Source of the DNA: Parvibaculum sp.
Lineage (GTDB): Bacteria > Pseudomonadota > Alphaproteobacteria > Parvibaculales > Parvibaculaceae
Assembly (NCBI GenBank): GCA_014359855.1
Contig: JACIYQ010000215.1
Span: 1-33,502, forward strand
Direction of reading: 5' to 3'
DNA length: 33,502 nt
Shown: piece by piece, positions 25,007 to 33,502 of the stretch
Layout: every line of letters begins with the position of its first letter
Numbering within the stretch: position 1 is the first letter of the stretch
Translations under genes and position numbers: made by a program
The notes under the pieces: model-generated
What the model was told of the DNA's origin: nothing
Seen by the model: the letters and a program-made list of their open reading frames with translations, nothing else
The model's database searches: none

Positions 25007-27361
25007 TCAGGGGCGCACGTGAACGCCAACCTTCATTGGAAGCCGCAAACGATCCGCAAACCGGGCGTCGAGCTTGCCGGATATCTCGCCGAAATAGGCG
25101 CGATCATCTTCGAGAACAGACAAGATTGTCTGCGTTTGAGCGGTAAGCGCCGCGATCAGCCGTTCAAGCGGACCTCGTAATGCACCCGCTTTCTTGTGCG
25201 AGAGGACTGCCGTCTGCGCGGCCTTCGCCGCCCAATTCGAGAGCGCAAGATATTCAAGCACTCGCTGTTGCTCGGACTCATCCGGCTCAACGGTCAGGCT
25301 TTGCAACGCCCTTGTCGCGCCGAAATGCTGTAGCAGCAATCGACCGATCAGACGCGGCCAGTCGTAACCTTCCGCCGTATATACGGGAAGGATTTGCGAA
25401 GGTGAGAATGAACCCGATAGGGGCTGCGCGTGAGAGAGAATGATCTGCATGAGCGCGCGAAGTCTGACCATCTCCGATGTCGTGATCTTCTTTTCCGAGA
25501 GTGCCTTGCACCGAGTCTCGAAAGCGGTGACGGCCTCTTGAAACTTCTTGGCGGTCGCGCGGCTTTGCGCCGAAAGTGATCTGGTTGGGGATGCTCTTTC
25601 CGTGCGCGCGTTACCGCTTCGGTCATCATCTGCCGATTGCGGTTCTGTGGTTCGGAAATCTATCGCACCAAGAGCATCGATGTCCTCATCTTCCATGCCT
25701 CTCAAATCAGGGCCGACCAAGCCGATCATTTGATTAAGACAGACGCTCATCAAACTGGCCGCGCTATCGTGGCGACTATTCAGATATAGCCCGAACGATT
25801 TGCCTTGCGCGTTCGCATGGGTGCGCGCACGGATAAAATCATCGTATGAAAGGACTTCATATGTCGGCGGCGCAGCATCGGGGGCTTGCGACTTGGCTCG
25901 CGGCGTTTGGTCGGGCTGGCTTGCGCGATCTTCTTCCTCCAACGCTTCGAGCTGATTGAGCGTTTCGATCAGAACCAAATCTTCGTGGATGGATTCCACG
26001 AGCGTATCCATCAGCCGCCGCTTGCGCCCGCGTTGCGCAGGCAAGGTTGTCACGGCGAGATAATCAAGGTCGACGATTTGGACCGGGGCCGACATCGCGC
26101 CGTCCGCGAATGCCACGATGCCATATTTGGGACGCTGGGCGTCGGGCGAAACCACGTAGCTCGCCGAACTGCCGTTCGATTCCATCTCCGCCAAAGCTAA
26201 TCCATCGCGGTCATAGAGTTGGATCGTCGCCGGGGCCGCCGACGACGCTGCCGGGGTGGTCCATGACAATTTCCCCGCCTGCAATATCAAGGTGCCGCCA
26301 TCTATCGAAGGCTCCGCCTCCTTGGCCTCCTCGAATGATTGCTGAAGCTCCGCGAGTTGATCGCCCTCAATGCGGGCATCTTTATAATCCGCCAGTCCCA
26401 ATGCTTCCAAGGCTGCACCGCGCGGAACGCGCTTGTAGATTCCTGCTTCCGCATTTCCGTGGGCTGCCGGTCCCATCAAGGCCGGGAACGTGCAATTCAT
26501 GCTGCCGGAAATCACATGGTCCCAGCGTTCACCGTGGACGACGATGAGCTTTGCATGAAGGAATCGGCTCTCCGCGTGCGCGCTGACATCGAACAAAGAC
26601 GTATCTGAAAGTCCCGACAGCGCAGCTGAGGGGAAACCGTTTGCATCGCTCTCGATCAGAATATCAGTGATGGGATTTTCGAGCGCCGCGCGGAGCCGTG
26701 CCAATCCTTCAAGCCGCACGTCCCAATAGGGCGACACGATGACAAGCCGTTCAATCGGATCATCGCCTATGGATGCGATGATCTGATCGAGGCAATTGAT
26801 CTCCGGGCGGTCGAACAAGAGATTGAGTTCTGCCGTTCCCGCTCTATCGAACGTGTGATCGAAATTATCATCACGCAACCATGAAGCGAATCGCAGCGCC
26901 CGTTGCAGGCTGATCGGAAACCATTGATCGTCCAGCGGCACATAGCGCCGAAAATATCCAAGCGCGCTTTTGAAAAACTTCGCGTTCTCCTGCGTCTCCG
27001 GCGAATATGAGATGCTGGCGATCTGCTCCTTGTTACCGCCAAGGCCGAGAGCGGTCAGGTTTGCCGAACCTACGGTCAACCGACCTTTGGTCTCGCCGAT
27101 CAACATCGTAATTTTGGGATGGAAAGCGCCCGGCGCGTCGGCCTTGATGAGATGGTAGCTGGTTCCGGCAAAGCGCGGCGGTCCAAACTCCGAAAAAGCC
27201 TGATTGAGCATCCCCCTATCGGCGAGGACGGTGATGTTGCGACATCCGGCACCTCGGAGCTTCGGAAACGGTATATCCTCAAAGGCGAGCGATCCGAACG
27301 CATAGGTCGTCATGAACGCCGAATGGAATCCGCCTTCGCCAAACGCTTCAAAATACTTCAT
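25007..27361 (-). CDS. Protein with two PLD/HKD-type nuclease motifs and long unknown C-terminus
   Basis: A 784-residue protein. Two phospholipase-D superfamily half-sites are visible in the first 300 residues. The first has FHPKITML (His81, Lys83) followed by GSANLT (98-103); the second has LHAKLIVV (His269, Lys271) followed by GSMNCT (286-291). HxK plus GSxN pairs of this type form one active site, as in bacterial PLD nucleases and in BfiI-like enzymes, so cleavage of DNA or another phosphodiester is the likely chemistry. Residues about 340-440 may form beta-rich modules and 440-784 are mainly helical with acidic stretches; I recognise no family there. The ATG overlaps the stop of the upstream 512-residue gene by 4 bp (ATGA), so the two are translationally coupled. 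No helicase or methylase lies beside it. A defence role is inferred from chemistry and context. Confidence 0.8.
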   Translation of the reverse strand: MKYFEAFGEGGFHSAFMTTYAFGSLAFEDIPFPKLRGAGCRNITVLADRGMLNQAFSEFGPPRFAGTSYHLIKADAPGAFHPKITMLIGETKGRLTVGSANLTALGLGGNKEQIASISYSPETQENAKFFKSALGYFRRYVPLDDQWFPISLQRALRFASWLRDDNFDHTFDRAGTAELNLLFDRPEINCLDQIIASIGDDPIERLVIVSPYWDVRLEGLARLRAALENPITDILIESDANGFPSAALSGLSDTSLFDVSAHAESRFLHAKLIVVHGERWDHVISGSMNCTFPALMGPAAHGNAEAGIYKRVPRGAALEALGLADYKDARIEGDQLAELQQSFEEAKEAEPSIDGGTLILQAGKLSWTTPAASSAAPATIQLYDRDGLALAEMESNGSSASYVVSPDAQRPKYGIVAFADGAMSAPVQIVDLDYLAVTTLPAQRGRKRRLMDTLVESIHEDLVLIETLNQLEALEEEDRASQPDQTPRAKSQAPDAAPPTYEVLSYDDFIRARTHANAQGKSFGLYLNSRHDSAASLMSVCLNQMIGLVGPDLRGMEDEDIDALGAIDFRTTEPQSADDDRSGNARTERASPTRSLSAQSRATAKKFQEAVTAFETRCKALSEKKITTSEMVRLRALMQIILSHAQPLSGSFSPSQILPVYTAEGYDWPRLIGRLLLQHFGATRALQSLTVEPDESEQQRVLEYLALSNWAAKAAQTAVLSHKKAGALRGPLERLIAALTAQTQTILSVLEDDRAYFGEISGKLDARFADRLRLPMKVGVHVRP

Positions 27362-28896
27362 GCGGTCGCCATCTCCGCGCGGCCGCGTTCCGTGATTCCG
27401 TTCTCATCAATGAGGCTGATGTCGCGCAAATACCGGAGCGCCTGATCCAGCCGCGGGCTGCTTGGCGAAACCCGAAAGTGGCTGCGGTAACGTAGCTGCC
27501 CTTCTTCCGGCTCCATGTGGAAGGTGTATGCCTTCTGGTTTCGGAATTTGCGGGACGCGACCCACATATGGCGCTTTAGAATCCGCTCGCGGATCAAATC
27601 CGCGATCACGCGGCTCGCCGAAACTGCACGAGCGCGATCGAGAAATTGCACTTCCGTCCGTAGCGACTGAAAATAATCCGCGCCGCTTAGCGCCTCCTCG
27701 ATCAAATTCGTGGCCGCCGATGACCTGTCATAGAGGATCGCGATTAGTGATACGGCGAGGCGCACCTGTTCTGCCGTTTCACCTTCCTCCATCGCGGACA
27801 GCATGGCCTGAGCATGTTCGCGCGCCGCCGTTGCTTCATCGGCAAGGCCAAACGAAAAATCCTCCCACGTTTGATCGCCCGCAATTTCAGCGAAGCCGAT
27901 CAGTCCGTCTGTGAGGTCGGCAAGAGTCATCCGGCGTCGTGGCGCTGTTTCTAACAAGGTCAGCGCGGCTGACAGGATCGCCTCATAGGCAAGACGCACA
28001 AGATCGCAGGCTTGATACAGAAACCAGAGATGCGGAACCTCGCGGGCGTTGCCGCCCTGCAAATTCGGCACGTTCTCAAACCAATGCCATTTCACCTGCT
28101 CGGCGCGCGGGATCGAGCGCGAGGTCGCGACTACATCGAGGAGCATTTGAAGCGTGCTGCGCCGCATCCTATCCGTCTCGCTGCGCGTGTCGCTCTTCCC
28201 CAACAGAATCTCTGTCAGCAAAATATGCTCATCGCTGTCTTGTTTGAGCTGGTTCGGCTTCATGGCCTCGAACGATTTCAGGGATGGCAGAGCGATTTTC
28301 CCGGCTGCCACCACTTCAAAGAACTCATCCGCTGTTGCGCCAAGCTCCCGCGAAAAAGCGTCCGCCAACTTCAAGGCAACATCGGAACACACAGGATTGG
28401 GGTTTGGATGGCCCGCACCGGGGAAATGAATCAGTCCCATTTCCGACATTTGCGTTGCGTAAATCGCGCCGAACGCGCCGCCCTTGTTTCGCAGATAGCG
28501 CAGACTCTCATCGGTATTGGGATCGGCACCGACGCTGAAATCTATGATTGCCGCTTCACTGGATTGGGCGCGCGCGTCGCTCAGCGTTCGGTTGGCCCAG
28601 TCGGACCCCGTAATGCCCAATTCGCTTTCGCCGTATGTGCAGATAAGCGCGAAAAGCGCCTCGCATCGGCGCTGAAACTTTCGAAACTCATTGGGATCAG
28701 AATGTCTGATCTTTTCTTCGTAGTGTCTCAGTATGAAGGGAAAGAACGAGTAATAGCGATAGCGCAGCGTGATCGTGCTGATCCCCGGCACAATTGACTG
28801 ATAGATGACTTCTATTGGCCGCTGCATGCCGAGCGGGTCGAGGCCACTGTCTTGACCGAGTTCGGTCCATTCTGGAAATCCATACCCTAAGTCCAT
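27358..28896 (-). CDS. Unknown 512-residue protein, first gene of the PLD operon
   Basis: Starts MDLGYGFPEWTELGQDSGLD, with no signal peptide or clear membrane span, and is mostly alpha-helical by composition. Features include an aromatic segment near the N-terminus (LRYRYYSFFPFILRHYEEKI), KWHWFENVPNLQG in the middle, and a C-terminal part (VIADLIRERILKRHMWVASR and RLDQALRYLRDISLIDENGI) that reads like a winged-helix end. I do not recognise a family or catalytic motif. It is always expected to be made together with the PLD protein because the stop overlaps that gene's start by 4 bp. It may be a sensor or specificity subunit for the nuclease, which is inference. ATG 28896 lies 83 bp beyond the abiEii stop; a shorter start is possible but none is clearly better. 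Confidence 0.8.
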   Translation of the reverse strand: MDLGYGFPEWTELGQDSGLDPLGMQRPIEVIYQSIVPGISTITLRYRYYSFFPFILRHYEEKIRHSDPNEFRKFQRRCEALFALICTYGESELGITGSDWANRTLSDARAQSSEAAIIDFSVGADPNTDESLRYLRNKGGAFGAIYATQMSEMGLIHFPGAGHPNPNPVCSDVALKLADAFSRELGATADEFFEVVAAGKIALPSLKSFEAMKPNQLKQDSDEHILLTEILLGKSDTRSETDRMRRSTLQMLLDVVATSRSIPRAEQVKWHWFENVPNLQGGNAREVPHLWFLYQACDLVRLAYEAILSAALTLLETAPRRRMTLADLTDGLIGFAEIAGDQTWEDFSFGLADEATAAREHAQAMLSAMEEGETAEQVRLAVSLIAILYDRSSAATNLIEEALSGADYFQSLRTEVQFLDRARAVSASRVIADLIRERILKRHMWVASRKFRNQKAYTFHMEPEEGQLRYRSHFRVSPSSPRLDQALRYLRDISLIDENGITERGRAEMATA

Positions 28897-28979: not shown

Positions 28980-29840
28980 CTAGACTCCAAACCGTTCCCG
29001 CATTTCCCCGGCTTTCGCCCATTCGTCACCGGGTATCAGGTCGATTAGTTCGTTCATCACTTTGACGAAGGTGGCCTTGAGCGTCTCGTCGTTTAGCGCC
29101 TTGGCGCGATCTGTCTGAAGCAGCGGGCGCATGTCGGTGAAGAAGGTTGGATTGGCGAGTTTCTGGAACATGCGCTGCTGCGCCTCGGCCCTGGAAATCG
29201 TCACCTCCGACTTTTCAAGATAGAGCCGGAAACATTCGATGATCCGGGTCGTGTTCAACCCCTCGAACACGGTGAGCGCGTGATCGAGGTCGAACAGATC
29301 GCGGCCCTTGTTACGCTGAAGCAACGCCCGCAGCTTGGTCGCCAGCATTTCCTCCCGCGAGAAGGTCGGAATCGCCGCCTCGCCGGTGAACCACGGGTTT
29401 TCGATGCCGAACGGAATCTCGATGGGGGGATCGTAGGCTTCCCGCTCGCGCGTGTTGATTTCGACCTTGAGGTTGATGCGCGCATCGGCGGGCTCGCCTT
29501 CCGCATCGACGCGAAAGCGGAGTTTGGGAGCGACGGGGCTTGGACCGGACTTTGCCTTGCCAAGCCACGGTTCCAGTACGGTGCGAACACCGTCGAGGAC
29601 TGGCCCAATCGGGCCGGCGGTCGTCCGCACGAGGTCTATATCTTCCGAATACCGCAGCGGCGCCGGGAAATGCAGCTTGTTGAGCGCCGTGCCGCCACGG
29701 AAGCGCAGTTCGCCGCGCAGGAACGGATCGGAGAAGATGGTGACAAGCGCGCGGCTGATGATGAGGTCTTGCTCGACCTGCCGCTGGCTTGCCCACGGCG
29801 CGACGCGGCTCCAGGCGGTGATGTAGTCCTGCGGGATCAT
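28980..29840 (-). CDS. abiEii: AbiEii-family nucleotidyltransferase toxin
   Basis: A 286-residue toxin of the type IV AbiE system. Nucleotidyltransferase motifs are visible: GGTALNK (49-55), SEDIDL (65-70, the two Asp expected to bind metal), a Lys-rich helix EEMLATKLRALLQR (about 163-176) and NKGRDLFDL (177-185). Family members modify nucleic acids, in related toxins tRNA 3' ends, to halt growth when phage infection or loss of the antitoxin occurs. Its start overlaps the abiEi stop by 4 bp, the normal arrangement. All four conserved motifs are present, so it should be active. Confidence 0.93.
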   Translation of the reverse strand: MIPQDYITAWSRVAPWASQRQVEQDLIISRALVTIFSDPFLRGELRFRGGTALNKLHFPAPLRYSEDIDLVRTTAGPIGPVLDGVRTVLEPWLGKAKSGPSPVAPKLRFRVDAEGEPADARINLKVEINTREREAYDPPIEIPFGIENPWFTGEAAIPTFSREEMLATKLRALLQRNKGRDLFDLDHALTVFEGLNTTRIIECFRLYLEKSEVTISRAEAQQRMFQKLANPTFFTDMRPLLQTDRAKALNDETLKATFVKVMNELIDLIPGDEWAKAGEMRERFGV

Positions 29841-30664
29841 TCGTCGATCTCCGGCGGTCGGCGAACAATCACGCGCCAGTGGTCATCGCGTTCGGACGGC
29901 GGCGGCGACAAATCGGGATCGCCAGCCTGTTTGGGATCGAGTTCGACCCACGGCAGCGGCCCGCGCGCCGAGAGCGCCGCGAACATCGCGTCCGCTATCT
30001 GCGGATGCCCCAGCCTTCCGAGCAGATGCCCAAGGCGTTGCACCACCGCTTTCTCGAAGGCACCCGACAGGGAGGCGAGCTTTTCCGGTTGCAGCCGTTC
30101 GGCAAGCTCGGAGAGCACCGTCGCGATGTTGTCCAGGCCCGCGCCGGATTGCGGGTAGCGCACCAGATCGAGCGCCGTGAGTTCCGGCGAGGACAGCTTC
30201 ATATAGCCCGATTGCGTCTTGCGATCCTCGATCCCCGCCGCCACCGCCGCCATGTCCTTGCGGTAGGAAAAGACGATCCGCGTCCGTCCGGCCTCGATGT
30301 CGGGCAGGAGCTTGTCCGTGACGACCTGAAATTCCATGACGGCCTGATGGGAAGCGCCGTGAGCCGTCGCCGCGGCCAGCAGCCCCACATAGTAGGGCCG
30401 TTTTTCGTGGCGCATCAGGGCGTCGATGTACCACTCAGGCGGCGGCGCTCCCGTCGTGGCGTGCTGTGGCGGTACGACCACGTAGAAGCCGCGCCGGGGC
30501 CGGATGAGTTGGCCGCGCCGCTGTAATCGCTCGGCGGCGTCGAGGAATGCGCCCCGACTGATGCCGATCTCCTTCTGCGCCTCATCCGCAGAAAAGACTC
30601 CCCGGCCCGCAGCAAGCAGGCCGGAAGCGTAGGAGGCCAAGGCTGATCGTTCGACTCGAATCAT
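29837..30664 (-). CDS. abiEi: AbiEi-family antitoxin and autoregulator
   Basis: A 275-residue protein with an N-terminal winged helix (residues about 1-65: VERSALASYASGLLAAGRGV, then ISRGAFLDAAERLQRRGQLI and RGFYVVVPP) and a larger C-terminal antitoxin domain containing EWYIDALM, YYVGLLAAATAHGASHQ and SSPELTALDLVRYP. AbiEi counteracts AbiEii without binding it and represses its own operon through repeats at the promoter. Such repeats are seen here at 30673-30703 and 30729-30759. The start is ATG 30664; no ribosome site precedes it and a promoter -10 box ends only 5 nt upstream, so the message may be leaderless. Confidence 0.92.
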   Translation of the reverse strand: MIRVERSALASYASGLLAAGRGVFSADEAQKEIGISRGAFLDAAERLQRRGQLIRPRRGFYVVVPPQHATTGAPPPEWYIDALMRHEKRPYYVGLLAAATAHGASHQAVMEFQVVTDKLLPDIEAGRTRIVFSYRKDMAAVAAGIEDRKTQSGYMKLSSPELTALDLVRYPQSGAGLDNIATVLSELAERLQPEKLASLSGAFEKAVVQRLGHLLGRLGHPQIADAMFAALSARGPLPWVELDPKQAGDPDLSPPPSERDDHWRVIVRRPPEIDE

Positions 30665-30698
30665 ATGTCATTATCCGCCCTTAGCGCGGAATCTTCAA
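30662..30698 (-). promoter_or_regulatory. abiE promoter, probably giving a leaderless mRNA
   Basis: On the minus strand a -35 TTGAAG (30698-30693), 17-bp spacer and -10 GATAAT (30675-30670) are followed by GACAT and then the abiEi ATG (30664-30662). Transcription starting about 7 nt after the -10 box would begin at the start codon itself. The boxes are good matches; the leaderless conclusion is inference. Confidence 0.6.
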
Positions 30699-30759
30699 TA
30701 TGACTCTATGATCGGATCATCCTTAAAAATCCGCTTTCAGGGCGGGTTTTTCAATATGA
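30673..30759. repeat. Two 31-bp direct repeats, abiE operator candidates
   Basis: Copies at 30673-30703 and 30729-30759 match at 24 of 31 positions and start 56 bp apart. Each holds a small imperfect dyad (CCGC ... GCGG) and ends in a shared TTCAATATGA. The first overlaps the abiE promoter; the second lies in the divergent gap toward the HTH-hsdR genes. AbiEi antitoxins elsewhere bind a pair of repeats at their promoter, so these are the probable operators. Confidence 0.7.
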
Positions 30760-30873
30760 TGCTGCGGCAGCTCCGGTCCCCGCTGCCCACCGCAAGGATG
30801 GACGTCACCATTATCTTCCCTGATTTTCTCCGATCTTCTATATACTTCTCCAACCACGAGTCACGGCAGGCGC

Positions 30874-31071
30874 ATGACCGACGAAATCCTGACGATCCGG
30901 GAGGTGGCGGAACTTCTCAAGATCAATGAGAAGACCGCCTACAAGCTCGCCTCGGCAGGCAAGATTCCTGGCTTCAAGGTCGGCGGATCGTGGCGATTCC
31001 AGCGGCAGGAAATCGCAAACTGGATAAAGCGTAAGGTTGAGGAACAGCAGGGGGGCAGCGGGGGCGCATGA
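30874..31071 (+). CDS. Small excisionase-type HTH DNA-binding protein
   Basis: A 65-residue protein: MTDEILTIREVAELLKINEK, then TAYKLASAGKIPGFKVGGSW and RFQRQEIANWIKRK. This is the MerR-like HTH_17 or excisionase fold, with a Gln/Gly-rich tail. A very similar arrangement, a small HTH gene overlapping an hsdR-type gene by 4 bp (ATGA at 31068-31071), is common, so it probably regulates the restriction operon rather than excision of the element. A TATACT box upstream (about 30844) could be its -10, without a clear -35. Confidence 0.85.
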   Translation: MTDEILTIREVAELLKINEKTAYKLASAGKIPGFKVGGSWRFQRQEIANWIKRKVEEQQGGSGGA

Positions 31072-31502
31072 CGAACGAAGCCGACACGTGCCGAAAATTC
31101 GTCGTGCCCAAGCTGCAATCCGCCGGTTGGGATAGCGACCCTCATTCCATCGCCGAGCAGCGCACCATCACGGATGGCCGCGTCATTCCCGTGGGCAAGG
31201 GTTTTGTCCGCAAGCCACCCAAGCGGGTTGATTACCTGCTGCGCTTTACGCGGGATTTTCCGCTCGCCGTGGTCGAGGCCAAGGCCAGCTACAAATCAGC
31301 GACCGATGCCGTGCAGCAGGCCCGCGATTATGCGGAAATCCTCGACCTCAAATACGCCTACGCCACCAACGGCGCCGAGATCATCGAGATCGACTATTTC
31401 AAGGGGACGGAAACGCGCGTTGCCGACTTCCCCACACCTGATGACCTTTGGCGGCGCTATGGCTCGTCGAAAACTGTCACCCATGTCTCCGAACACCTGT
31501 AA
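31068..31502 (+). pseudogene. hsdR: Type I restriction enzyme R subunit (hsdR), truncated by an IS
   Basis: Only about 136 authentic codons remain of a gene that is usually near 800-1000 codons. They contain the N-terminal nuclease domain: MTNEADTCRKFVVPKLQSAG, RVDYLLRF with Asp55, then VVEAKASYK with Glu70 and Lys72, a PD-(D/E)xK active site, and ATNGAEIIEIDYFKG with FPTPDDLWRRYG. At WRRYGSSK the gene meets an insertion-sequence end (about 31475) and the frame closes at TAA 31500-31502. The motor domains and the hsdM and hsdS partners are not in the window, so restriction is lost. A free nuclease-domain fragment could still be made from the HTH operon. Confidence 0.85.
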
Positions 31503-31524
31503 CCCTTGTCTCCGGTCCATACAC
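31475..31524. mobile_element. Terminal scrap of an IS (IS481/IS3-like end)
   Basis: Two similar 17-mers lie 23 bp apart: TGTCACCCATGTCTCCG (31475-31491) and TGTAACCCTTGTCTCCG (31498-31514), 15 of 17 identical. I associate this doubled end with IS481/IS3-type elements; the family is tentative. No transposase of this element remains. It joins the cut end of hsdR to the cut end of an IS4-family transposase. Confidence 0.55.
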
Positions 31525-32063
31525 CTCGACGGGCATGGCCTTTGCGGCGGTGACGTCGTTGACTTTGGCTGCCGTCACCGCCGCATAGATCGGCCGCTCG
31601 GCGCCTGCGTCATAGATGACATGGACCTTGGCACCGCAGGCCCTGGCCGAGAAGCGCGCCCAGCCGCTCCCCTGGCCGCTCAGGCGGACGCCGGTCGAGT
31701 CGATGAGATAGACAGCCTCGTCGACGGCACGGCGCAAACCCCGTTGCGCGCCGGCGACCATGGTCGCGAACAGCTCGCCGAACACCGCCGAGGAACGCCG
31801 GGCGTTGGTATCGGCAAGCGTCGAGCGCGAGGCCGGCTTCGCCCCACATGATAGAGCCGCGCCGCATGGCTCTCCAGGCCGCCGGCGATCTCCCGCAGGC
31901 TCGCCGCACCGGAAAGCTGGCCGTAAAGCAGTGCGATGAACTGGCTCCGGGTCGAAAGACGGCGAACATGCTTGTCGGCCCCGTGCTCCGCCACCAGCCG
32001 GTCGAAAACAGCCCACGGAACATGCTTCAAGAGATCGTGGAAAACGCTATTGTGATGCCGCAC
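31525..32063 (-). pseudogene. IS4-family transposase, frameshifted and truncated
   Basis: Starts at GTG 32063 (VRHHNSVFHDLLKHVPWAVF), with GGAG upstream, and has the DUF4372-type N-terminus continuing DKHVRRLSTRSQFIALLYGQ. One G appears to be missing from a GGGG run near 31847: the frame then changes and continues KPASRSTLADTNARR, AVYLIDSTGVRLSG (first catalytic Asp), CGAKVHVIYD and AVTAAKVNDVTAAKAMPVE, where it is cut. The later DDE residues (second Asp and Glu) are gone. Usual length is about 380 codons. It cannot transpose by itself. Confidence 0.85.
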
Positions 32064-32148
32064 GGTGTTGGCTCCGATTTTGTGTCCAGGAGACGCGCAA
32101 ACGTCTGAACACAAATAGAATCAACACCGTGCAGCCAGTCCAGAAATC

Positions 32149-32165
32149 TAAACCGGACAGCAGTG
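32149..32165 (-). repeat. IS4-type terminal sequence, left flank of the ROK gene
   Basis: Read on the minus strand it is CACTGCTGTCCGGTTTA, located about 85 bp before the transposase start, and is the likely left terminus of the IS4-family remnant. An exact 17-bp copy occurs in opposite orientation at 33361-33377. Confidence 0.65.
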
Positions 32166-32261
32166 CACTTGTTGCCGGGATCCATTGGCCTCTGGCTTTG
32201 CTGTGGGGTGGATTGGGAATAAATCCCGGGATGACATTTTTGTTTTGGCGAGGGCTTTGCC
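32166..32261. repeat. Dispersed-repeat fragments downstream of the ROK gene
   Basis: Contains TTGCCGGGATCCATTGGC and ATCCCGGGATGACAT, pieces like the short palindromic elements scattered in many alphaproteobacterial genomes. No gene is seen. Confidence 0.35.
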
Positions 32262-33260: not shown

Positions 33261-33360
33261 TGTCATGCCCGGGCTTGACCCACTGGTGTCCGGTCAAGTG
33301 GAGCCGGTTGCAAGAACGATGAATTTTTCCAACCCAGAATCGTCATGGCGCGATTTATTC
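33261..33360 (+). mobile_element. Broken palindromic repeat and IS4-like end fragment
   Basis: TGTCATGCCCGGGCTTGACC (33261-33280) is the first half of a common alphaproteobacterial palindromic repeat. Where its second half should follow, CACTGGTGTCCGGTCAAG (33281-33298) appears instead, similar to the CACTGCTGTCCGGT terminus that starts 80 bp later. The 80 bp between look like an IS end scrap. Confidence 0.45.
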
Positions 33361-33502
33361 CACTGCTGTCCGGTTTAAATTTTTCGGGGCTGGTTCAAGC
33401 TTTTGATTTTGCGAGCGAAACGCCTGTTCGCCAGCACTCGGGACTCGGAACCGCGAAATCGGGTTTACTGGATCACCCGGATGTCCTGATCGGCTCCGAA
33501 TT
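33361..33502 (+). mobile_element. Start of a second IS4-type element (continues past the window)
   Basis: Begins with CACTGCTGTCCGGTTTA, identical over 17 bp to the left IS4 terminus but inverted, and then shares scattered matches with it (CTGG, TTGATT). Its body runs rightward out of the window, so the transposase is not visible. Confidence 0.55.

Follow-up and report, generated by a model that had tools for sequence, protein, structure and literature searches.

The abiE toxin-antitoxin operon described in this work is preceded by two tandem palindromes of 43 bp, here named O1 and O2, which very probably constitute the operator of its own antitoxin, AbiEi; autorepression is the best explanation for the arrangement, and abiE appears to be the only operon served by it. 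The window (the whole stretch of DNA analysed, 33,502 nucleotides from Parvibaculum sp.) contains the following features around this operator, given with their coordinates and strand.

28980..29840, minus strand: abiEii, nucleotidyltransferase toxin, with a 4-nt overlap with abiEi
29837..30664, minus strand: abiEi, antitoxin and predicted autorepressor, with an N-terminal winged HTH plus an antitoxin domain
30661..30703, minus strand: O1, proximal 43-bp palindrome, holding the -35 and -10 hexamers and the start codon
30662..30664, minus strand: abiEi start codon ATG, in the right outer arm of O1
30670..30675, minus strand: -10 hexamer GATAAT of the abiE promoter, 5 nt before the ATG
30693..30698, minus strand: -35 hexamer TTGAAG of the abiE promoter, inside O1
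30717..30759, minus strand: O2, distal 43-bp imperfect palindrome, 56 bp upstream of O1 and in the same orientation
30813..30852, plus strand: four imperfect 10-bp direct repeats, ATCTTCCCTG ATTTTCTCCG ATCTTCTATA TACTTCTCCA, lying over the likely promoter of the HTH gene
30874..31071, plus strand: small HTH_17, excisionase-like or MAD1-like DNA-binding gene, 65 aa, divergent from abiE
31068..31502, plus strand: 5' fragment of hsdR (EcoAI-type, type I restriction subunit), with homology ending near codon 131 and followed by transposase DNA

The abiEi and abiEii genes are a standard AbiE pair, a type IV toxin-antitoxin system involved in phage defence. AbiEi contains the Pfam domains PF13338 (AbiEi_4, the N-terminal winged HTH; 36.5 bits) and PF09407 (AbiEi_1, the C-terminal antitoxin domain; 113.4 bits), both above their cut-offs, and was assigned by PADLOC with an E value of 1e-102, while the gene downstream in the same operon codes for an AbiEii/DUF1814 nucleotidyltransferase (PF08843, 133 bits). 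Beside them, PADLOC weakly matched two adjoining genes (25007-28896) to ZacA and ZacB, a PLD-like protein with its partner, which may form another defence system.

Both palindromes follow the 43-bp unit TCATAT-N7-TCCGC-N7-GCGGA-N7-ATATGA, perfectly in O1 (11 of 11 arm pairs matched) and imperfectly in O2 (8 of 11), and the peaks of a blind palindromicity profile coincide with them. A previous sequence-only reading had described a pair of 31-bp direct repeats at this place. The repetition itself is confirmed (71% identity over 48 nt, at a distance of 56 nt), but the unit had been drawn too short, since the comparison of loci gives the 43-bp palindrome. In its own genome, a pattern scan found the palindrome only at O1 and O2, and a scan of 60 related genomes retrieved three isolated matches with two mismatches and none with fewer; relatives that lack abiE have practically no copy of it. 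Because O2 resembles a terminator, such a role was considered as well and rejected: the scan did not call it, and its position between divergent genes and in register with O1 speaks further against it.

How far this architecture extends was assessed with 80 AbiEi relatives retrieved together with their flanks by scanning genome contigs, which span many lineages and mobile contexts and make 81 loci when the window is included. The proximal palindrome is present in all 81, with a centre one base shorter in L025, and in 79 of them the distance from its centre to the start codon downstream is exactly 18 nt; L079 and L086 do have an ATG at the register giving -18, the start assumed from the alignment having been off. 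The distal palindrome is recognisable in 60 of the 81 loci, at a threshold of 15 or more matching arm positions out of 22 that shuffled upstream sequence reaches in 0.6% of cases, and given the 21 loci that lack a recognisable copy, O2 is not essential everywhere. Both copies are separated by 56 bp at AbiEi identities of at least 80%, and mostly by 61-62 bp in the remaining loci. Upstream palindromes vary among more distant relatives (~31-42% AbiEi identity), being strong in L004 and L129, located near the start in L127, L136, L137, and L144, and no stronger than in shuffled sequence in a number of others, so that the 43-bp architecture does not extend with certainty to every AbiEi. In one locus (L033), the apparent end of a tRNA gene cuts into the distal palindrome upstream of abiEi, which would fit a joining of the abiE module at a tRNA integration site.

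The two arms also change together, with an A-T pair replaced by G-C at positions +/-17 from the near to the remote subfamily, and inner arms TCGAC/GTCGA instead of TCCGC/GCGGA in L121. Complementarity between proximal arms reaches 0.850 against 0.801 for re-dealt arms (sd 0.007), and between distal arms 0.724 against 0.706, not clearly above chance (maximum of the re-dealt arms 0.731). Most of this covariation corresponds to one or a few old events, with 3-5 changes on the AbiEi tree; a count of independent arm changes on that tree yielded few events and one supported pair.

The promoter proposed from the window, TTGAAG-17 bp-GATAAT ending 5 nt before the abiEi ATG, stands: it is sigma-70-like, lies on the minus strand inside O1, and has no second promoter-like site beside it between 30500 and 31100 (mean in shuffled sequence 0.2). 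Its embedding within the operator repeat, also part of that proposal, is kept over the 81 loci down to ~58% AbiEi identity. With a score of at least 9 of 12 as threshold, the promoter hexamers pass in the O1-type copy of 54 of 80 loci and in none of 60 O2-type copies, where they have decayed in the relatives.

The same reading had noted that abiEi has no ribosome-binding site, and indeed 78 of 81 loci have no Shine-Dalgarno core between -18 and -5. An in-frame stop is found at most 36 nt upstream of the start in 75 of 81 loci, and from codon 2 on codon positions 1/2/3 are conserved at 0.85/0.92/0.69 (near relatives) and 0.80/0.91/0.60 (far relatives). Codons 2-10 evolve as coding sequence, with the third position as the variable one, and translation must therefore truly begin at this ATG. 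Judging from the missing Shine-Dalgarno core and the coding signature, the abiEi message is almost certainly leaderless, and with the 5-nt gap as an additional indication the apparent leaderless start suspected in the window gains support as a prediction across the 81 loci. A -10 element only 5 nt from the ATG would place the transcript start at the A or at most one or two bases away, and a start at the A or adjoining it is probable. Against the A itself, +1 would fall on the second or third base of the ATG (T or G) with standard spacing, and a start at the A needs a short discriminator (5 nt).

Solved structures searched with the AbiEi sequence alone returned no match, and with an AbiEi alignment chance matches only, making a fold comparison necessary. 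The structure model of AbiEi (pLDDT 85.5), compared with the PDB, is closest to Rv2827c (1zel; E 2e-9, TM 0.67) and also matches the AbiEi of S. agalactiae (6y8q; E 2e-7, TM 0.30), the two heading the list. These are two proven autorepressors, which repress their own operons via 23-bp inverted repeats that come in pairs and overlap the promoter (PMC7319586), and it is on account of this likeness in fold that O1 and O2 are read as the AbiEi operator. By analogy with them, AbiEi most likely binds both palindromes and shuts off its own genes. RNA polymerase would use the TTGAAG-17-GATAAT promoter within O1, starting at the A of the start codon or no more than two bases from it, and the product would be a leaderless mRNA. 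The N-terminal winged HTH of AbiEi would then bind O1, presumably as two protomers on two half-sites, covering the -35, the -10, and the start codon and thereby switching the promoter off. Binding at O2, which has no promoter, could reinforce, adjust, or bend the complex in its repressed state, as the two characterised AbiEi-type repressors suggest. The element would act for abiE alone, with the divergent HTH gene relying on a direct-repeat operator of its own.

It could be argued that the palindromes are bound by another regulator, a host or element factor, given that the case for AbiEi rests on co-occurrence and fold. We consider this highly improbable: the palindrome accompanies abiEi across 80 loci of many lineages and mobile contexts, it appears nowhere else in its own genome and hardly in relatives without abiE, and AbiEi has both a DNA-binding domain and the fold of the two autorepressors. 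A different possibility is that the palindrome works as RNA, a hairpin in a leadered abiE transcript that hides the start codon and controls translation. The 49-nt stretch does fold to exactly this hairpin with the start codon in the stem (-12.7 kcal/mol, z -2.1), and a fold of 106 nt reaches z -4.6. However, the conserved promoter lies inside the palindrome, and RNA made from it does not include the left arm; further upstream there is no conserved promoter, with the distal hexamers decaying, and mismatches in the distal outer arms (~32 G-T against 28 C-A) have no G-T excess, as for pairing in DNA. Translational control of this kind is thus extremely unlikely, and the transcript without left arm together with the lack of G-T bias restrict the relevance of the hairpin to read-through transcripts. 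A dual role of the start codon, belonging to the AbiEi operator as DNA and hidden in read-through RNA while the leaderless transcript is freely translated, can be entertained as a rather doubtful addition to autorepression; if true, the mobile toxin-antitoxin module would be insulated from the promoters it lands beside.

The other question concerns the divergent HTH-hsdR side, for which the sequence-only reading had proposed that one repressor controls both operons, AbiEi binding to one repeat for abiE and to the other for HTH-hsdR. The genes are divergent with ~210 bp between their starts, and both palindromes are kept in 11 of 11 HTH-bearing loci examined, which makes a long-range effect on the HTH promoter physically possible. 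The palindromes nevertheless track abiE and not HTH-hsdR. The divergent HTH gene was undetected in the DNA fetched for 71 of the 80 loci, and there the same arrangement persists (proximal palindrome in 71/71, distal in 50/71), whereas the palindrome was not found in 19 HsdR loci without abiE (L090-L108), nor in two plasmid HTH or RM loci (L109 and L110). The TTGAAA-17-GATTTT motif assigned to the second copy is present and does adjoin the HTH-hsdR genes, but it does not face them, being read on the strand of abiEi and towards it, and it is this promoter-like half that has decayed in the relatives (0/60 against 54/80 for O1-type copies). A scan of the plus strand in 30500-31100 did not find a promoter-like site. 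The best candidate for an HTH promoter sits ~60 bp beyond the palindrome, on the 10-bp direct repeats, and hsdR ends in the window after ~131 codons. We therefore regard shared control as very unlikely, and AbiEi probably does not control the adjoining broken restriction operon. With palindromes that go with abiE and an HTH gene that has its own repeats, two back-to-back promoters with separate operators are the better reading.

The repeats at 30813-30852 would be this separate predicted operator, apart from that of abiE. They are conserved, with a mean lag-10 match of 13.25 of 20 compared to 8.6 in shuffled sequence (99% at 12), and similar 10-bp repeats precede relatives of the HTH gene on plasmids, without abiE and before other restriction-type genes (L109 and L119). 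As far as the HTH gene is concerned, and only there, the arrangement resembles the BldC operators of Streptomyces, where a small MerR-like HTH protein is associated with AATTNNNNC-like head-to-tail repeats over the promoter (PMC5859096), with a period of 9 bp in BldC against 10 bp in the window (PMC5859096). With 31 bits, the HTH protein stays below the BldC cut-off (77) and was therefore not filed as BldC.

Regarding the restriction genes themselves, an intact relative (L011) has hsdR, hsdM, and an hsdS-like gene, and searching the assembly (72% complete) with the hsdR and hsdM of this locus retrieved, besides the fragment, distant relatives only. The divergent HTH-abiE pair is followed by hsdRMS in L011 and by hsdR in L012, L013, and L089, and it occurs without an hsdR relative in L014-L017, L022, and L024, suggesting that the defence cargo is exchangeable behind a constant HTH gene. 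In the window hsdR is interrupted by transposase fragments (31473-32200 and 33280-33390). Near 33360 there is another end of the 'ccggacagcagtg' kind, and the island may thus have lost its right end through a deletion between two insertion elements.

Overall, these results provide a precise and widely conserved predicted operator for a large AbiE subfamily carried by mobile elements in Alphaproteobacteria as well as in other bacteria, and the consensus can be used in genome scans for autoregulated abiE modules. They also predict leaderless translation of a toxin-antitoxin operon whose start codon lies within the repressor site, and they correct the idea of a joint control of the adjoining restriction genes.

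Among the known systems, that of S. agalactiae is also an abiEi-abiEii type IV pair in which AbiEi is an autorepressor (PMC7319586, PMC3985639). Its operator is one pair of 23-bp repeats with 3 bp between the halves (PMC7319586), a compact inverted pair over the promoter with half-site centres ~26 bp apart, compared to ~25 bp in the window, where two such pairs stand in tandem. The S. agalactiae protein is shorter, with 195 aa in 6y8q, and has diverged too far from the AbiEi described here for a sequence search to connect them. In M. tuberculosis, Rv2827c has two tandem repeat pairs within -1 to -131 (PMC7319586), and Rv2827c-Rv2826c thus shares with the window the presence of four half-sites, which form two inverted-repeat pairs in tandem ahead of the antitoxin gene, one pair lying over the promoter (PMC7319586). 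The halves are spaced by 13 bp in Rv2827c and 7 bp in the window (PMC7319586), and the pairs repeat with a period of 63 and 56 bp, respectively (calculated from the stated lengths; PMC7319586). Binding of Rv2827c is negatively cooperative (PMC7319586). The four 23-bp repeats of Rv2827c (-1 to -131) exclude the start codon (PMC7319586). The arrangement in the window therefore combines the compact pair of S. agalactiae with the tandem layout of M. tuberculosis, and differs in including the start codon.
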